Below, piece by piece: positions 12,191 through 19,413 of a DNA stretch of 32,229 nucleotides (within the stretch, counting starts at the first letter, position 1; the number at the start of each line of letters is the position of its first letter). The stretch is from contig JAKPOQ010000133.1 of NCBI GenBank assembly GCA_029547745.1, positions 1 to 32,229 on the forward strand, given 5' to 3'. The position numbers and the translations under genes were made by a program. This DNA is from Actinomycetes bacterium (lineage in GTDB: Bacteria; Actinomycetota; Thermoleophilia; UBA2241). The notes beneath the pieces were generated by a model, which saw nothing but the letters and a program-made list of their open reading frames with translations, did no database searches and had not been told where the DNA came from.

Positions 12191-13153
12191 TCACCCACCG
12201 ATCTGTGACATGGACCGATGGTTGGCGAGGCGCTCGCGGCGGCGGTCGAACGTCTTGGCGGAAAGCGCCGCCTCGAGCGCCGCACGCAACTCCTGAGGAC
12301 GGCCGATCAGCGGCCGCACGTCCGTCTCCTCGCCCGAGAAGAGGCAGGTGCGCAGACGTCCGTCGGCCGTCAGCCGCAGGCGGTTGCAGCGCTCGCAGAA
12401 GTGCTCCGAGACGCCGGCGATGAAGCCGATCGTGCCCGGCGCGCCGGGCGCCGCCCAATAGCGCGCCGGGCCGTGTCCGTACGGCCCCGCGACCGGCTCG
12501 AGCACGTGGCGGGCGCGCAGCAGCTCGAGGACGCGCGGGGCAGGCACCATGTGCCCTTCCACGACGAGCCGCCGGTCGACGGGCATGAACTCGATGAAGC
12601 GCACGTGGACGGCCCGTTCACGGGTAAGGTCGACGAAGGCGTCGAGCTCGTCTTCGACCCCCTCGAGCAGGAGCACGTTGAGCTTGACGGGCTCGAATCC
12701 GGCGGCGAACGCCGCGTCCAAGCCGGCGAGCGCGTCACGCAGGCACGCGCCGCGCGTCACGGCGGCGTACCGCGCCGGGTCGAGGCTGTCGATGCTGACG
12801 TTCACGCGGCGCAACCCGTGTCGGCGCAGGTCGTCCGCGAAGCGCGGCAGCAGGACGCCGTTGGTCGTCAGGGAGAGGTCCGCGACACCCTCGATCTGCG
12901 CCAGCATACCGACCAGGTCGGCACAGCCGTGGCGCACGAGCGGCTCCCCGCCGGTGATACGCACCTTGCGGATCCCACACGAGACGGCGACACGCGTGAA
13001 GGCGACGAGCTCCTCATACGACAGGATGTCGTCGTGGGACCGCGGCAGCACGCCCTCCGGAGGCATGCAGTACGTACACCGCAGGTTGCAGCGGTCGGTG
13101 ACCGACAGGCGCAGGTAGTCGACGCGCCCTGCACGCGCGGGCGTCACGCTCAT
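12191..13153 (-). CDS. moaA: GTP 3',8-cyclase (radical SAM, MoaA)
   Basis: 320 residues. The radical-SAM cluster motif is C22-N-L-R-C26-T-Y-C29, followed by [13 protein letters not shown]. The C-terminal second [4Fe-4S] site is [18 protein letters not shown], and the protein ends in Gly-Gly (SQIGG), essential in MoaA. It converts GTP to 3',8-cyclo-7,8-dihydro-GTP, the MoaC substrate. The ATG at 13153 is used; an ATG at 13177 would add eight residues and neither has a strong ribosome site. It leads the moaA-moaC-MOSC/mogA-glycosyltransferase operon. Confidence 0.95.
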
Positions 13154-13224
13154 GCCCGAAGTGTAGTGCACGCGCATGGCCCCGGCGAGCCCGGCGGTCG
13201 CCGCGCGGAGGGCCTGACAGCGAC

Positions 13225-13272
13225 GTAGGGCGGCGCGGGGAGGACGGCACGGCCGTCCGCGCGCCGCCCTAC
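13225..13272 (-). terminator. Long hairpin at the end of mop
   Basis: 13225-13237 pairs with 13260-13272 over 13 bp, and inside it GGACGGC (13242-13248) pairs with GCCGTCC (13252-13258). It includes the mop stop codon and lies between mop and moaA, so it probably ends the mop transcript. There is no U-run. Confidence 0.5.
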
Positions 13273-13472
13273 TTGTCGATCAGGACTTCCGTCGCCTTGA
13301 TCACGGCCGTGACTTCGTCCCCGGCCTCGATCGCCAGGTCCTCAGCCGCGCGCCGCGTGATCGCCGACACGATCTCGTGCCCGCCGATGTCGATCACGAC
13401 CTCGGCCATCACCGTGCCGAGGACCACGCTCTTGACCGTCCCGGCCAGTTTGTTCCGTGCGCTCAAGGTCAT
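13269..13472 (-). CDS. mop: Molbindin (Mop/TOBE domain protein)
   Basis: 67 residues, a single Mop domain. Starts with the typical SARNKLAGTVKSVVLG, then VMAEVVIDIGGHEIVSAITRRAAEDLAIEAGDEVTAVIKATEVLI. Members form hexamers that bind and buffer molybdate or tungstate in the cytoplasm. GAGGAGG lies 6 bases before the ATG. The upstream region holds the CTAAG-N6-CTTAG palindrome shared with the tup promoter, so joint control by an oxyanion-responsive regulator is likely. Confidence 0.93.
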   Translation of the reverse strand: MTLSARNKLAGTVKSVVLGTVMAEVVIDIGGHEIVSAITRRAAEDLAIEAGDEVTAVIKATEVLIDK

Positions 13473-13582
13473 GTCCGCCTCCTCTCCGCGCAGTCGCCGG
13501 ACGGCGACCGCTCCGGGTCAGAGGTACCCCGCGCAAGATGCGCTAAACGGCGTTCTCGCAGCCTGCGCGCCGCGCGGGTATC

Positions 13583-13598
13583 CTAAGCAGGACCTTAG
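13583..13598. promoter_or_regulatory. Candidate Mo/W operator upstream of mop and of the divergent secreted-protein gene
   Basis: CTAAG-CAGGAC-CTTAG, an inverted repeat with 6-base spacing. On the minus strand its last bases form TAGGAT, a possible mop -10, in the same register as TAGAAT in the tup site. On the plus strand TATCCT (13580-13585) overlaps its left arm and may be the -10 of the gene at 13659. Confidence 0.6.
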
Positions 13599-13658
13599 CG
13601 AAGGGCTTCGCGGCAGACCGAGGGCCACGACGCCCGCGACGTCGCAGGAGGTGCGGCC

Positions 13659-14783
13659 ATGGCGGTCCGGATCCGCCGCACATGCGTCCTGGGGGCGGTC
13701 CTCGTCCTCGCCGCCTGCGGCGCGTTCCTGCTCGTCGCCGACCGCGCCGCGGCGCAGACGAACACATACAGTGAGGGGATCCCCGGCGTGCCTTTCTCCT
13801 TCGTGAAGCTCGGCGTCGGCATGACTCTCGACCCCGGTGGCGACGACCAGACTCTGGTCCTCCAGCTCGAGGACGTGCCGGGCGGCGCCACCACAGCGGC
13901 GACGTCGGGCGCCATTTCCGGCGTTTTCACGCTCGATGGCGCCCCCGCCGAGAACGTGAGCTTCCTGCTCTTCCGCGTACGGATGGACTACGACACGACA
14001 TCGGCCGTCAGTCCGGTGGTGCGCTTCACGGCGAGGGAGACGGGCACGTTCAGCGGGCAGGCGCAGGGGCACGAGGAGCCCGCAACGGGAGTATGGGTCT
14101 TCCCCGTCGCCAAGCGGGACGACGGCGAATACCCCGGAGGCTCGCTCCTGCGCTACAGGCTCGCGTTCACGTTGCCGAACGCCGGCGCCAGCGGGACGAT
14201 CACCGTGTACGACGTCACTCTCGAGTACGGCCACTACGTCGCCCCCCCAGATTACGGCGGCGACGGCGGCGACGGCAAGGCTGACGGCAAGAGCAAGAGC
14301 GACGGCGGGAAGAAGCCGACCGGCGTCGCCTACATGGGCAGCTCAGGCGGCGGGTCAGGAGGCGGCACCGGCACCGGGTCCGGCGCCGGGTCCGGCACCG
14401 GCCAAGGCGGCGTCGGCGTCGGCGCGGGCATGGGGAGCATCGGGACCGACGCGCCGATGGCGGCGTCGCCGCGCTCGACCGCCGCCGACACCGTGACCGG
14501 CTACCCGCTCCGCCCGGAGGACCTGACGGGCGGCGGTGAGGGCGACGGTGGCACGGGGGACGCCGGGTCCGGCGGCGGTGGCCCGAGCGTCGCCGCAGGA
14601 ACGGCGAGCGGCGGCGCCTCGAGCCTCTCCTGGAGAGACCTCGTCTGGCTCGCCGTCGCGCTGGCTGTGGCAGCGCCTTTCGTCGCCGCTGAAGCCGACC
14701 GGCGCCGGGTGCGCCGGCGTCTGAGAGACCTCGTCGAGCAGACGCCGGACGGCCCGGCGCCACGCCTCACTGCACCAGTCTAA
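13659..14783 (+). CDS. Exported, Gly-rich, membrane-anchored protein of unknown function
   Basis: 374 residues with AGGAGG 7 bases upstream. An N-terminal signal (hydrophobic residues about 9-27) is followed by a likely cleavage site after RAAA; LAAC inside it resembles a lipobox, but the hydrophobic run continues past the Cys. Residues about 35-190 form a beta-rich domain without a recognised family; about 195-320 is Gly/Ser/Thr/Asp-rich linker; residues about 330-348 are a membrane span followed by a basic Arg-rich tail. This is the layout of a cell-surface protein tethered by its C-terminus. It is divergent from mop and shares the candidate Mo/W operator. Its end overlaps the convergent lipoprotein gene by 17 bases. 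Confidence 0.8.
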   Translation: MAVRIRRTCVLGAVLVLAACGAFLLVADRAAAQTNTYSEGIPGVPFSFVKLGVGMTLDPGGDDQTLVLQLEDVPGGATTAATSGAISGVFTLDGAPAENVSFLLFRVRMDYDTTSAVSPVVRFTARETGTFSGQAQGHEEPATGVWVFPVAKRDDGEYPGGSLLRYRLAFTLPNAGASGTITVYDVTLEYGHYVAPPDYGGDGGDGKADGKSKSDGGKKPTGVAYMGSSGGGSGGGTGTGSGAGSGTGQGGVGVGAGMGSIGTDAPMAASPRSTAADTVTGYPLRPEDLTGGGEGDGGTGDAGSGGGGPSVAAGTASGGASSLSWRDLVWLAVALAVAAPFVAAEADRRRVRRRLRDLVEQTPDGPAPRLTAPV

Positions 14784-15270
14784 GCTCGGCGGGCCGCTTG
14801 ATGCGGATCGCCGTGTGGTCGCCGCTCTTCACGATCGTGCCCGTGACGCGCACGAGCCTGCCCTCGAGCTCCTGCGGCGGCACGGTGAAACGTTCGGCGA
14901 CCTTGCCGGGGACGATCACGACGAAGCGCTGCGGCTCGGGCGCCGGCAGGCCGAGACTGAGTTCCACGGCGTCCCCCCGGCGACGGAAACCGGCCACGAC
15001 GCCTTCGACGCGGAGTCGCTGGCCGACGCTGTCGACGGCTTCGCTCCAACTGATGGTCTCGAGCCCGGCCGCGGGCGACATCAGGGCATCGGCGGCCGGT
15101 GAGGCGGGGGTCGCAGGCTCCTCCAGAGCGCTGCATCCAGCCAGACAGACGACGACCGGCGCGACGGCGAGGAGCGCGCCGATCACCATGGTGATCGGCG
15201 CGCTCCTCGCCGTCGCGCCCGACCCGTGAGGCCTGCGCATCCCTGCGGCGCCCGACCTGCGCATCGTCAT
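14767..15270 (-). CDS. Putative lipoprotein with OB-fold-like domain
   Basis: 167 residues from the ATG at 15270 (GGAG 8 bases upstream). A GTG at 15321 overlaps the tupC stop as GTGA and is the coupled alternative; ATGs at 15240 and 15189 are also possible. The signal sequence MVIGALLAVAPVVVCLAGC ends in a clear LAGC lipobox. The mature part (ISWSEAVDSVGQRLRVEGVVAG, then PPQELEGRLVRVTGTI and HTAIRIKRPAELRLV) has the alternating pattern of a small OB-fold. It is the last gene of the tup transcript and may be a surface ligand-binding partner. A perfect 62-bp palindrome runs through the signal-peptide codons. Confidence 0.7.
   Translation of the reverse strand: MTMRRSGAAGMRRPHGSGATARSAPITMVIGALLAVAPVVVCLAGCSALEEPATPASPAADALMSPAAGLETISWSEAVDSVGQRLRVEGVVAGFRRRGDAVELSLGLPAPEPQRFVVIVPGKVAERFTVPPQELEGRLVRVTGTIVKSGDHTAIRIKRPAELRLVQ
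15158..15219. repeat. Perfect 62-bp palindrome with no spacer
   Basis: Every base from 15158 to 15188 pairs with its partner from 15219 back to 15189; the centre is ACCATGGT. The next outer positions (15157/15220) do not pair. It lies within the lipoprotein gene and codes for part of the signal peptide region on the minus strand. Confidence 0.97.
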
Positions 15271-15317
15271 CCTGCGCGCTCCGTCCACCAACTTCCTCAC
15301 TCCCTTCGCGAACACGG

Positions 15318-16067
15318 TCACGGCCCCTCGTGCACGTAGTCGGCGACGACGGGCGTCGCAGGTCGCGCGGCGACCTCCGCGTACGTGCCCTGCTGCAGGA
15401 CCCTACCCTGCTCGAGGAACGTGACGCGGTCGGCCATCGCCCTCGCTTCGGAGGTATCGTGGGTCACCCAGAGGACGGCCATCGCGAGCTGGGCGAAGAT
15501 GCGCTGCAGGTCGGCGGCCAGGGCACGCCGTGTGGGAGGGTCGAGCGACGCCATCGGCTCGTCGAGGAACAACACGGCAGGGTCGGTGGCGAGCGCGCGG
15601 GCGACGCTGACACGCTGCGCCTCGCCTCCCGACAGCCCCGAACGGCGACGGTCGGCGAGGTGCGAGATCGCCAGCAGGTCCATCGCGCGCTGCGTGCGCG
15701 TGCGCAGCTCGTCCCCGCGCACCCCGTGCACACGCAACCCGCTCTCGACGTTCCCTCTCACTGTGGTCGACAGGAGGTACGGCTGTTGGAAGACGGCCGC
15801 CGTCCGTCGCCGCAGGCGCAGGCGGTCCTTGTTCGAGCGCACCAGGCGCCCTTCGAACTCGAGCGTGCCGGCGACACGCTCGAGACCATTGAGGGCACGC
15901 AGCAGCGTGCTCTTGCCGGCGCCGTTCGGCCCCAGCACGACGTGGACCTCCCCCGGCATGACGGCGAAACGGGGCACGTCGACGACGACGCGGTCTCCCT
16001 TGCGGACCACGAGGTCGGTAGCCACGATGATCGGCCCGTCACCCGTGTCCGGAGACTCGCCCCTCAT
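15318..16067 (-). CDS. tupC: Tungstate ABC transporter, ATP-binding protein
   Basis: 249 residues. Walker A GPNGAGKST, Q-loop VFQQPYLL, signature LSGGEAQRVSVARAL, Walker B VLFLDEPMASLD and switch His in WVTHD are all intact. It lacks the C-terminal TOBE domain of ModC/CysA-type ATPases; free Mop may take over that sensing role. ATG with GGAG about 9 bases upstream. It lies 37 bases downstream of tupB and powers import of the anion delivered by TupA. Confidence 0.92.
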   Translation of the reverse strand: MRGESPDTGDGPIIVATDLVVRKGDRVVVDVPRFAVMPGEVHVVLGPNGAGKSTLLRALNGLERVAGTLEFEGRLVRSNKDRLRLRRRTAAVFQQPYLLSTTVRGNVESGLRVHGVRGDELRTRTQRAMDLLAISHLADRRRSGLSGGEAQRVSVARALATDPAVLFLDEPMASLDPPTRRALAADLQRIFAQLAMAVLWVTHDTSEARAMADRVTFLEQGRVLQQGTYAEVAARPATPVVADYVHEGP

Positions 16068-16104
16068 TCACGCCCGCTCCGGTGTCCGGCGACGATCTCG
16101 CTCG

Positions 16105-16803
16105 TCACTCGTGCCTTCCCCGCTGCTGGATGACCGTCATCGCGTAGTTCGTCGAGAAGCTCAGGATGATGAGTACGACGCCCAACGCCATGGCGTTCGC
16201 GAACTCTCCCATGCCGACGTACTGCATGATGCCCGTGGTGAGGACCTGGGTCTCGCCGATGATGTTCCCCCCGACCATGTTGACCGCGCCGACCTCGGAG
16301 ATGATGCCGCCGAAGGCGGCCATGACGGCCGCCATGAGCGGCACCCTGATCTCGCGCAGGAGGAGCAGGAAGAGCCTGAACCGGCCGGCGCCCAGGGAGA
16401 GGATCTGCAGGCGGAAGCCGGCGTCGAGCTGCTGCAGGGCGGCGAGCGACAGCCCGGCGATGATGGGCAGGGCGATCAGCACCTGAGCGATCACCATTCC
16501 GGTGACCGTGTACATGAGGTGCAGGGAGCCGAACGGGCCGCTGCGCCAGAGGAAGAGGGCGACCACGAGGCCGACGACGACTGGCGGCACGCCCATGCCC
16601 GTGTTCACGCTCGCGACGACGAGACGACGAAGGGGGAACTGGTTGAGGGCGACGACCATGCCGAGCGGCACGCCGAGGACGAGCGAGATGGCGAGCGCGC
16701 TGCCGGCCACGCGCAGAGAGCGGAGGGCGATCTCGTACGTCGTGGCATCGCCGCCGAAGAGCAGCCGGAAGGCCTCGACGATGCCCCGGATGATGTAGTC
16801 CAG
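16105..16803 (-). CDS. tupB: Tungstate ABC transporter, permease
   Basis: 232 residues, about six membrane spans. The EAA loop region is LGAGRFRLFLLLLREIRVPLMAAVMAAFGGIISEVGAVNMVGGN, characteristic of TupB/WtpB-type permeases. The frame is open upstream, but that sequence encodes the intercistronic terminator and has no credible start except a GTG at 16893 inside the hairpin. The homologous N-terminus DYIIRGIVEAFRLLFGGD begins after a CTG (16803) that has GGGGAGG 7 bases upstream, so CTG is the probable start codon. Confidence 0.88.
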   Translation of the reverse strand: MDYIIRGIVEAFRLLFGGDATTYEIALRSLRVAGSALAISLVLGVPLGMVVALNQFPLRRLVVASVNTGMGVPPVVVGLVVALFLWRSGPFGSLHLMYTVTGMVIAQVLIALPIIAGLSLAALQQLDAGFRLQILSLGAGRFRLFLLLLREIRVPLMAAVMAAFGGIISEVGAVNMVGGNIIGETQVLTTGIMQYVGMGEFANAMALGVVLIILSFSTNYAMTVIQQRGRHE

Positions 16804-16854
16804 CTCAGACCCTCCCCGTCGTGATCCCGCGTCGTCGCGTTCGGCCGAAAAGAC

Positions 16855-16894
16855 CGTGGGGGCGGCGGAGTTCGGGACCTCCGCCGCCCCCACG
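16855..16894 (-). terminator. Intercistronic terminator between tupA and tupB
   Basis: A 16-bp perfect GC stem (16855-16870 with 16879-16894), 8-base loop, followed on the minus strand by GGTCTTTTCGG. It lies 46 bases after the tupA stop. Partial termination here would yield more binding protein than permease and ATPase, a common arrangement in ABC importers. Confidence 0.75.
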
Positions 16895-16939
16895 TGGCTC
16901 AGTCCTCCCGGGAGAGGACCATTCTATAGGTGGCTCAGG

Positions 16940-17917
16940 TCACCGCGCCGGCGCCGGGGCGGGCGGCAGCACCGAGGTCGGGATGACGTACGCGTTCGGA
17001 TAGAACATCGTCGTACCCAGCATCTTGTACGCACCGATGGCCTTCTGGCCGTTGCTGCTGACGAGCCACTCCGCCAGGAACTCCGCCCCGGTCGAGTTGA
17101 CGTCGGGGTGGTCGTTCTGGTTCACGAGCAGGACGGAGTACTGGTTCTTGAGGTCCTTGCGCGTCGTGAGGAGACGGTAGAGCGGCGGCGAGAGCTTGGC
17201 GCTGCTCTTGTTCTTGATCCAGGTCGCCACGTCGGTAAGGGTGTAGGCCTTCTTCTCGGCTGCGAACATGAGGGTATCCAGCATGCCCTTGCCGGTCGAC
17301 GCATACCATGACGGCGCGCTGGCGGGATCGATGGTCACGCCGGCCTTCTTCCAGAGCTCCAGCTCCTTCTTGTGCGTGCCTGAGTTGTCGCCGCGCGACA
17401 CCCAGGCGATCCTGCCCGCGGGGAGCGTCTTGCCCCAGGCGGCGATCCGCTTGAAGGCCTGCACGGCCGTCTTGGCCGTCTTCACGCCTGCCGGGTCGAC
17501 CCCTCTGCTGTTCGTCATGCCGACGACGGTGAAGTAGTTGTAGGCGAACGGCAGCCTCATGGTGAGGTGTCCCTGGGCCAGCAAGTCCTTCTCGTCCGCC
17601 GGAGAATGCGCGATCACGACGTCGCAGTTGCCGTCCCTTGCGAGCGCAAGGGCCGCGCCGGAGCCCACCGAGACCCACGTCAGGTCGATGCCCGGGAAGC
17701 GTGCCTCGAACGCCGGCTCGACGACGTTCACAAGGAGCCCTGTGTCGTTGACGCTGGTCGTCGTCGCCAGTCGCAGCGCCGCGGGGTCGACCGCGCCCTT
17801 CGTGTCGTCCGTGCCATACGCTCCCGTCGCGCCGACGACGGCGGCGGCGACGAGCACCAGGAGCAGGGCGACGGTCGTCCATCGTGCCCACGTCCGCTTA
17901 CGCACTTGCTGAGCCAT
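16940..17917 (-). CDS. tupA: Tungstate-binding protein of ABC transporter
   Basis: 325 residues. An N-terminal signal peptide (Arg-rich start, hydrophobic 13-34) ends near GAYG. The mature protein opens with LRLATTTSVNDTGLL; the TTTS-x-x-TGL stretch (52-61) is the TupA oxyanion-binding signature. Further family segments are WVSVGSGAALALARDGNCDVVIAHSP and WVSRGDNSGTHKKELELWKKAG. It captures tungstate (or molybdate) with high affinity outside the membrane. GGGAGG lies 4 bases before the ATG at 17917; longer frames reach upstream of the promoter and are rejected. It is first in tupA-tupB-tupC-lipoprotein. Confidence 0.93.
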   Translation of the reverse strand: MAQQVRKRTWARWTTVALLLVLVAAAVVGATGAYGTDDTKGAVDPAALRLATTTSVNDTGLLVNVVEPAFEARFPGIDLTWVSVGSGAALALARDGNCDVVIAHSPADEKDLLAQGHLTMRLPFAYNYFTVVGMTNSRGVDPAGVKTAKTAVQAFKRIAAWGKTLPAGRIAWVSRGDNSGTHKKELELWKKAGVTIDPASAPSWYASTGKGMLDTLMFAAEKKAYTLTDVATWIKNKSSAKLSPPLYRLLTTRKDLKNQYSVLLVNQNDHPDVNSTGAEFLAEWLVSSNGQKAIGAYKMLGTTMFYPNAYVIPTSVLPPAPAPAR

Positions 17918-17999
17918 GCTGCCTCCCACTGACGATCGCCTTGCTCCGCAGGGCGGACGAAAGGTCCCGCCACCGCGGACCCGTACTTCGGAGGCACTC

Positions 18000-18029
18000 A
18001 TTCTAAGGAAACGCTTAGGGTGGTGGCAA
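18000..18029 (-). promoter_or_regulatory. tup promoter with overlapping palindromic operator
   Basis: On the minus strand TTGCCA (-35, 18029-18024), an 18-base spacer and TAGAAT (-10, 18005-18000). The spacer and -10 contain CTAAG-CGTTTC-CTTAG (18018-18003), so a protein bound there would block RNA polymerase. The start of tupA is about 83 bases downstream of the -10. Confidence 0.78.
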
Positions 18030-18178
18030 GAGCAGCACGGAGGCGGTGAGAGGCGGTCGGAAGGTCAGTGTCCCAGGACGTGGCGTACGGGTCGCAAGGC
18101 TGTCGTGCGGAGACGACCGCGACGATGGACCCTCCCTGAGGCCGACATCATGCGGACCGGAGCGCCGTCCCGAAAGGG

Positions 18179-18226
18179 AGAAAAGAAGGGGGGCGGCGGG
18201 CCAGAAAAGAAGGGGGGCGGCGGGCC
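18179..18226. repeat. Perfect 24-bp tandem duplication of a terminator arm and tail
   Basis: 18179-18202 and 18203-18226 are identical. Each unit holds one arm of the GC hairpin plus the A-rich stretch AGAAAAGAA that becomes the U-rich tail on the minus strand. Confidence 0.9.
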
Positions 18227-18244
18227 CGGAGGGCCCGCCGCCCC
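18214..18244 (-). terminator. Rho-independent terminator with a duplicated U-rich tail
   Basis: A 14-bp perfect stem (18214-18227 with 18231-18244) and 3-base loop, followed on the minus strand by CCTTCTTTTCT, and 24 bases further by a second copy of arm and tail. It must end a minus-strand transcript that starts to the right. Confidence 0.75.
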
Positions 18245-18288
18245 GTCTGCTCGGGTGCGGCGCGCGGGCGCACCGCGTGCGGGGCGCC

Positions 18289-18318
18289 CTAGCGCGCCGC
18301 ACCACCTAAGTCAATCAC
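18289..18318 (-). CDS. Possible nine-residue leader peptide
   Basis: GTG start followed by eight codons and TAG encode MIDLGGAAR. AGGAGGT lies 9 bases upstream with an exceptional match to the anti-Shine-Dalgarno. The stop codon lies inside the base of the following long hairpin, so ribosome position could affect folding. Codons ATT, TTA and GGT are rare in this genome. The same frame is open back to 18483, giving a 64-residue unrecognised protein as an alternative. Confidence 0.3.
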   Translation of the reverse strand: MIDLGGAAR

Positions 18319-18484
18319 GTGTCGTCTACCTCCTTTCGTCGCGGCCTCCGGTCGCGGCGCGTCTCTTGTCCGCACCTTGACCGCCGACATCTGAAAGCAT
18401 CGCGCACTCGCCCGATATTGGCAAGTGCGCGGCCTCCCGGCGCTCCGGGCTGTCGCATGACTCACGCTCGCGGGGTTCTGCATG

Positions 18485-18850
18485 GCGCTCCCGATCCCTT
18501 CTATGTCGCCCGTGACAGGACGGCCGAGGGCGTCGCCCTCCGGTCAGTGGTCGACAAGGTCGAGCTCGGGGAACTGCCCGCGTACACTCACGCGGTCGAG
18601 CGCTGGCCGACGACGCCATCAAGATCTGCGCGGGCGCCCCGAACGTGTACTACCACCACCAGCCGCTCATCAAGCCCATCAAAGGCGACGACATCACGGA
18701 GATCTTCGCCGGGGCCGCCCATGTGGCAGAAGGCAAGCACTACCTGCGGCCCCAGCCACATCCCTTCTTCGAACCTGATCCCGGATTCGCCCACGCCGAC
18801 GAAGAGGGTCGTTGCGGGAAGAGCCGCCACCTGGGGGCCATCCCACGGGC
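18485..18850 (+). pseudogene. Decayed coding region, family not recognised
   Basis: Two plus-strand frames show strong G/C-ending codon use back to back. The first reads DPFYVARDRTAEGVALRSVV and then VDKVELGELPAYTHAVERW up to about 18608. The second, offset by one base, continues ADDAIKICAGAPNVYYHHQP then LIKPIKGDDITEIFAGAAHV and onward to about 18810. A single-base deletion near 18610 would explain the break. Neither part has a credible start or ribosome site. Downstream (to about 19017) coding bias becomes ambiguous, and an antisense frame 19025-18588 is also open. The region separates tup from the CQLGC/MoaD genes and may be a lost gene of that cluster. Confidence 0.35.
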
Positions 18851-19064
18851 TGCGCACAGTCATGGCCTGCCTACCGCCGACGGGGACGTGGAGCACGACA
18901 TCCGGGACCACCCAGGCGGCGACCTGGACCTCCGACGTCGGAAGCGTCATCAGGTTCACCTCCACGGTGCAGTGGATGGAGGCGCCCGCAGCCTGGTACG
19001 CCGAGGACACACGCTGAGCCGTCACTAGCCAAAGGCGGCGCAGGCGCGAAGCAGAGGACGCCGC

Positions 19065-19250
19065 TCAGAAGCAGCCGAGCTGGCAGCCGACGACCTTGAT
19101 GCCCAGCTCGTTGCAGGTGCGGCCGACCTCGGCGAGCGGGACGTCGAGGTCGCGGGCGATCTTGAACGCCACCGCGCACCGCAGACGCTTCTCGACGCCG
19201 GCCTTCGCCTTCAGGGTCTCGATGAGACGCGGGATGTTCCCTTCGGCCAT
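19065..19250 (-). CDS. Small conserved helical protein with C-terminal CQLGCF motif
   Basis: 61 residues. CAVAFKIARDLDVPLAEVGRTCNELGIKVVGCQLGCF looks like a small winged-helix-like fold with four Cys (one early, one in RTCNELG, two in CQLGC). I recall similar CQLGCF-ending small proteins from anaerobe genomes near tungsten/molybdenum genes, but their function is not established; metal or cofactor handling is a guess. TGCTAGACT, an extended -10-like sequence, lies only 7 bases before the ATG, so the mRNA may be leaderless; AAGGAG at 16 bases upstream is too far for normal use. The moaD-like gene lies 163 bases upstream on the same strand. Confidence 0.75.
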   Translation of the reverse strand: MAEGNIPRLIETLKAKAGVEKRLRCAVAFKIARDLDVPLAEVGRTCNELGIKVVGCQLGCF

Positions 19251-19413
19251 GGCGCGCAGTCTAGCACTCCTTGCGCCGCGGTCGCAGCGCCGCGCCGGCC
19301 GGGAGGCACGCCGGCTGGGAGGCACGCCGGCCGGGATGCGCCGCCCGGGACGCACGCCGGCCGTGGTCCGTCACGGGCCGAGGAAGGCGAGCGACCTGCT
19401 CCGCTCGCGGTCC

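Follow-up and report, generated by a model that had tools for sequence, protein, structure and literature searches.

The window, that is, the whole stretch of 32,229 nucleotides that was analysed, belongs to a Thermoleophilia MAG of 2,265,330 bp (G000) and carries a tungstate transporter operon and a mop gene, each preceded by a copy of the palindrome CTAAG-N6-CTTAG. The features of this region are the following.

12191 to 13177, minus strand: moaA, following mop in the same orientation (from sequence; tblastn relatives at regulator loci)
13269 to 13472, minus strand: mop, a 67-aa TOBE (Mo/W-binding) protein (PF03459, E=3e-19; TIGR00638 above cut-off)
13524 to 13548, minus strand: possible second mop promoter, GTTT-N15-GGGTAC (from sequence, conserved in the congener G001; low confidence)
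13580 to 13585, minus strand: possible mop −10 box, TAGGAT, overlapping the palindrome (low confidence)
13583 to 13598, no strand: palindrome CTAAGCAGGACCTTAG, proposed operator between mop (minus) and a divergent exported ORF (plus); exact match, second matrix score
13659 to 14783, plus strand: ORF for an exported protein, divergent from mop; the 13583 site could serve it as well (from sequence)
14767 to 15321, minus strand: lipoprotein-like ORF, last of the tup operon and overlapping its end (from sequence)
15318 to 16067, minus strand: tupC, ATPase (PF00005, E=1.7e-29; place in the tup operon)
16105 to 16893, minus strand: tupB, permease (NF038017 above cut-off; NF041773 TupB, E=8.7e-45, under its cut-off)
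16940 to 17920, minus strand: tupA, tungstate-binding protein, start ATG at 17920-17918 (NF041772, E=3.7e-54, under its curated cut-off)
18000 to 18029, minus strand: sigma70-like promoter of tupA, TTGCCA-N18-TAGAAT (promoter scan)
18003 to 18018, no strand: palindrome CTAAGGAAACGCTTAG, the operator proposed for tupABC; exact match, kept in G001, top matrix score

The initial annotation had described two exact copies of the palindrome upstream of oxyanion genes. An exact match confirmed both positions, and the neighbouring genes, mop and tupA, proved to be Mo/W genes. No other exact copy occurs anywhere in the genome; the random scatter that the annotation had named as a refuting outcome did not occur. 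A reversed control pattern matched once in the same genome, and no exact copy appeared in 100 dinucleotide shuffles of the window. By a rough estimate, base composition alone would give ~0.4 copies per genome. Since the two copies share a 4.4-kb stretch and each stands at an Mo/W gene, we do not ascribe them to chance. When two mismatches were allowed the genome held 74 matches, compared with 147 for the reversed control, and these matches are mostly background.

The promoter scan placed a single sigma70-like promoter in the region 13200-18500, namely that of tupA. The palindrome occupies its −35/−10 spacer and the TAGAAT box (18005-18000) overlaps the right arm, an arrangement that makes repression likely. 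At tupA of G001, whose protein is 76% identical, CTAAGGACTTCCTTAG lies at the equivalent position before TAGAAT. The earlier claim that both palindromes overlap a −10 box in the same register thus stands for tup and is weaker for mop. The TAGGAT of mop lacks a clear −35 and is absent from the scan output, and TAGCGC (G010) or TAGCGG (G009) takes its place in relatives; since the scan was silent and the box is not conserved, we assign it low confidence. The GTTT-N15-GGGTAC box, which we take to resemble actinobacterial sigmaB/sigmaF promoters, sits downstream of the mop palindrome, and the mop promoter is uncertain. This palindrome has mop on one side and, on the other, the divergent exported ORF, for which no family match was found among the Pfam and NCBIfam profiles, so either gene could be served by it.

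An ORF resembling the lipoprotein-like ORF of the tup operon, for which no Pfam family scored above cut-off, is present in G001. A DNA element at 18214-18405 is 89% identical in G001, where the flanking coding DNA is ~80% identical; the figure is 86% in G002, and several further genomes of the family match a shorter part of it at ~80%. The element contains a strong Shine-Dalgarno sequence, a 9-codon ORF (MTDLxGAAR) and a GC hairpin terminator, and often lies beside an aldehyde dehydrogenase, tup or mop. Positions 18588-19025 look like what is left of an aldehyde dehydrogenase gene; G001 (L037:17587-19128), G009 and G010 have this gene intact. A 62-aa ORF ending in CQLGCF (19065-19253) was considered as a regulator and rejected for lack of a family match. 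Small ORFs like it are found upstream of tupA in the class relatives L024 and L026, and because similar ORFs precede tupA in palindrome-free members of the class, we regard this type of ORF as unlinked to the palindrome.

We then compared 15 genomes of the family, G000 included, together with their 30 Moco riboswitch leaders. The absence of the motif from orthologous tup and mop genes, the other refuting outcome named earlier, was not what we found: it is kept at tupA of G001, and a copy with one mismatch precedes mop in G001 (CTAAGGCGTTCTTTAG), G009 and G010. The eight exact copies in the family lie at tupA (G000, G001), at mop (G000), in three riboswitch leaders (G001:C14, G010:C88 and G010:C308) and at a regulator gene (G006, G009). 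A similar palindrome, CTAAGTGATTACTAAG, in G003, G008 and G014 was set aside as unrelated, being a TetR/MFS intergenic element; palindromes of this type that separate a TetR-like gene from an MFS transporter (L100, L101, L102) represent a separate conserved operator.

The Moco riboswitch (RF01055) is present at the tupA locus in 9 of the 13 relatives examined outside G000 and G001, and is absent before tupA in these two, where the palindrome is found instead. In some relatives both occur in series. A palindrome with 0-2 mismatches stands at the promoter position in 6 of the 30 leaders, the other 24 showing at least 3 mismatches; it begins 17-18 nt before the 5' end of the riboswitch (10 in one leader) and a TANNNT box falls on its right arm. 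We rejected a reading of the palindrome as an RNA hairpin, since in these leaders it precedes the expected transcription start.

A co-occurring regulator, for which the initial annotation had recommended a search, emerged from the same comparison. In G006 and G009 the palindrome, with perfect 10- and 11-bp arms, precedes a gene coding for an ArsR-type winged helix joined to a PBP_like domain (PF12727). The ortholog of G000 (C132:9160-10161) is 62% identical to this gene; since it lies outside the window on a different contig, the operators would act in trans. Its own promoter contains a degenerate site, CTTAGGATTCCCCTAG, with two mismatches, which begins 26 bp ahead of the start codon and overlaps a TAGCGT box lying 17 bp after TTGACA; this site is lost in G001. 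Regulator and exact motif co-occur in four genomes (five of the 15 carry the regulator and five the motif; p ~0.02 by a hypergeometric estimate that makes no correction for kinship). The regulator was not found in G010 (91% complete, fragmented), which has several sites, nor in G002 (80% complete), which has one two-mismatch site, while G012 has the regulator and lacks the motif at its riboswitch, mop and regulator promoters.

The protein of about 330 aa carries a large C-terminal sensor resembling a binding protein. In the G000 ortholog the PBP_like domain scored E=1.7e-56, and HTH_20 (E=3.6e-08) and HTH_5 (E=4.3e-05) were both above the Pfam cut-off; no TOBE domain was found with Pfam. The N-terminal winged helix matched ArsR-type proteins in the PDB, among them the archaeal PH1932 (1uly, E=1e-18, by profile). 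The NCBIfam HTH_metalloreg model gave 28.9 bits, under its cut-off of 55, and no dedicated NCBIfam model matched. By sequence, the sensor matched NF011068, a MoeA-type molybdopterin protein, over the C-terminal (PBP) half of the latter (E=5e-58). In the structure predicted for the ortholog of G001 (L196:8001-8999; pLDDT 93.2, pTM 0.75), the sensor fold resembled type-II, oxyanion-binding proteins, including the tungstate-binding 3lr1, which was not the top match, and also LysR effector domains that serve many other ligands.

A search of GTDB contigs yielded 45 loci of this regulator in Actinomycetota and Chloroflexota, and we scored 45 upstream regions, 44 from these loci and that of G000. One carrier of the regulator is an isolate, Thermanaerothrix daxensis (L238). 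Within one mismatch, YTAAG-N6-CTTAR was found in 31 of the 45 regions, 17 of them exact. When the regions were shuffled the mean number with a site was 0.57 (maximum 3), and spacers other than 6 gave 0-8. Outside the regulator promoters there were four further sites in 479 kb of loci, including one at the tupA start in L204, which is likely to lie upstream of the true start although within the longest tupA ORF call. Genes for tup, mop or wtpA-like proteins were near 29 of the 45 loci, and the array regulator-tupABC was common. Comparative genomics thus links the palindrome both to this regulator and to Mo/W genes. The regulator is also often followed by CWB2 cell-wall-binding, small exported and ECF-S-like membrane proteins (L083:10214-13122, L208, L199, L207, L212), a set that is possibly an undescribed uptake module.

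We trained a position matrix on 29 distant regulator promoters only, all from outside the family. Its two highest scores in the window fell on the palindromes (19.1 bits for 18003 and 14.6 for 13583), the next score being 2.0; maxima in shuffled sequence averaged 4.3 and reached 13.9. With the same matrix the regulator site of G000 came first in the scored contig stretch. We also checked 20 PBP_like proteins of the same class whose N-termini are of the GntR, HTH_17 or MoeA type; none had a site within one mismatch upstream, and therefore the palindrome tracks the ArsR head and not the sensor. PBP_like sensors fused to a GntR-type head occur in L091 and L092 (by Pfam) and in L090 (by sequence), and one on an HTH_17 head in L094, beside a double TOBE protein.

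These results bear on several other explanations of the palindrome. That chance, or the promoter consensus alone, produced it has a negligible probability: although the right-arm TAG falls on TANNNT −10 boxes, no promoter element accounts for the left arm, position and a spacing of exactly 6 are conserved at regulator promoters, and all eight exact copies in the family are at relevant promoters. Given these copies, the regulator promoters and the matrix ranking of the window sites, we count this explanation as refuted. It is very improbable that the palindrome is a site for ModE, TunR or TaoR, the proteins known to regulate Mo/W genes, even though TaoR has the same sensor domain. The sequence is unlike the ModE box, as the initial annotation had observed, and ModE and TunR were rejected as regulators because the TOBE matches of G000 consisted of Mop and a single longer ORF that is probably ModC, and no regulator of the ModE/TunR type was among them. 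The regulator linked to the palindrome carries an ArsR-type HTH (HTH_20, HTH_5) and not HTH_17, and the sole clear HTH_17-PBP protein that we found (G012, HTH_17 E=2.2e-12) has no palindrome upstream.

A different, unrecognised Mo/W regulator could bind the palindrome, with the ArsR-PBP protein as its target and not the binder. The sites without a regulator in G010 and G002, and the regulator without sites in G012, would fit such an arrangement, but we judge it decidedly unlikely: the palindrome is conserved at the promoter of the ArsR-PBP gene itself in two phyla, is nearly absent elsewhere in the regulator loci, and did not turn up before PBP_like genes that encode other N-termini; the TOBE matches of G000 are confined to Mop and the longer ORF. 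It is also unlikely, to a slightly lesser degree, that the repressor works as proposed here and senses sulfate, phosphate, a Moco precursor or another ligand that is neither W nor Mo. Among the top structural matches of the sensor are LysR effector domains as well as proteins related to phosphate and sulfite, and in Actinomycetota the regulator often precedes cell-wall-binding and ECF-S-like proteins and not tup; against this stand the Mo/W genes near 29 of the 45 loci, the match to the MoeA-fused PBP domain, and the targets in the family, which are tup, mop and Moco riboswitch leaders.

We therefore favour, with a probability of roughly 0.83, the reading in which an autoregulated repressor, made of an ArsR winged helix and a cytoplasmic PBP_like sensor of the type-II periplasmic-binding-protein kind that would bind tungstate and/or molybdate, uses the palindrome as its operator. 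From the sequences we infer DNA binding, the ligand and the sign of regulation. The annotation's proposal of a dedicated Mo/W repressor with an operator other than that of ModE is supported by the conservation and by the candidate regulator. A repressor dimer would read two YTAAG half-sites with a centre-to-centre distance of 11 bp, close to one turn of the helix, which would fit a symmetric winged-helix dimer. As the tup operator lies in the −35/−10 spacer and overlaps the −10 box, the bound repressor would block RNA polymerase there. The metal-loaded sensor would most likely be the co-repressor, by analogy with uptake regulators: with sufficient W/Mo, transcription of tup and mop would be off, and starvation would release it. 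Through the same palindrome the regulator would also repress its own gene. We lean, less firmly, towards a wider proposal, that these proteins form an undescribed class of W/Mo repressor in Actinomycetota and Chloroflexota, with an operator of its own that may have replaced the tupA riboswitch in the genus of the window and may act in series with it elsewhere. If so, an oxyanion-sensing protein and a cofactor-sensing RNA would gate the same gene in some relatives, and the operators directly before Moco riboswitches would make these promoters suited to asking whether metal sensing by a protein and by an RNA is layered.

Known examples of Mo/W control are ModE, TunR, TaoR and the Moco riboswitch, and a description of an ArsR-type Mo/W regulator was not found in the open-access literature that we searched. 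The present results supply a candidate regulator, an operator and a predicted regulon for lineages in which we found none described. The riboswitch RF01055 controls the same kind of genes but does so through RNA. Like ModE and the ModE-like TudE, the ArsR-PBP protein is proposed to be a Mo/W-dependent repressor of uptake genes, although its sensor is PBP_like and without TOBE, the domain through which ModE senses (PMC11980592). With ArsR/SmtB proteins it shares the winged helix (HTH_5/HTH_20) and, as proposed here, a palindromic operator and autoregulation; it differs in its large C-terminal sensor, its length of ~330 aa and its score under the HTH_metalloreg cut-off. The nearest known kind of regulator is TaoR (Rajeev et al. 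2019, Environ Microbiol 21:784-799, doi 10.1111/1462-2920.14500, as cited in PMC11980592), described as an HTH joined to a PBP-like domain that regulates tungstoenzyme and Mo/W transport genes, TaoR-like proteins carrying the excisionase-type HTH_17 (PMC11980592). The PBP_like sensor and the linkage to tup and other Mo/W genes are common to both, whereas the ArsR-PBP head is an HTH_20/HTH_5 winged helix with its own operator, YTAAG-N6-CTTAR, a contrast drawn from the described domains of TaoR. Because the sensor half was already known from the TaoR family, the "new" of the initial annotation has to be qualified. Sharing the sensor and not the head, the ArsR-PBP family would work in a TaoR-like manner without belonging to TaoR by its head domain, and the occurrence of the PBP_like sensor on ArsR, excisionase-type and GntR heads shows the rewiring of one oxyanion sensor.
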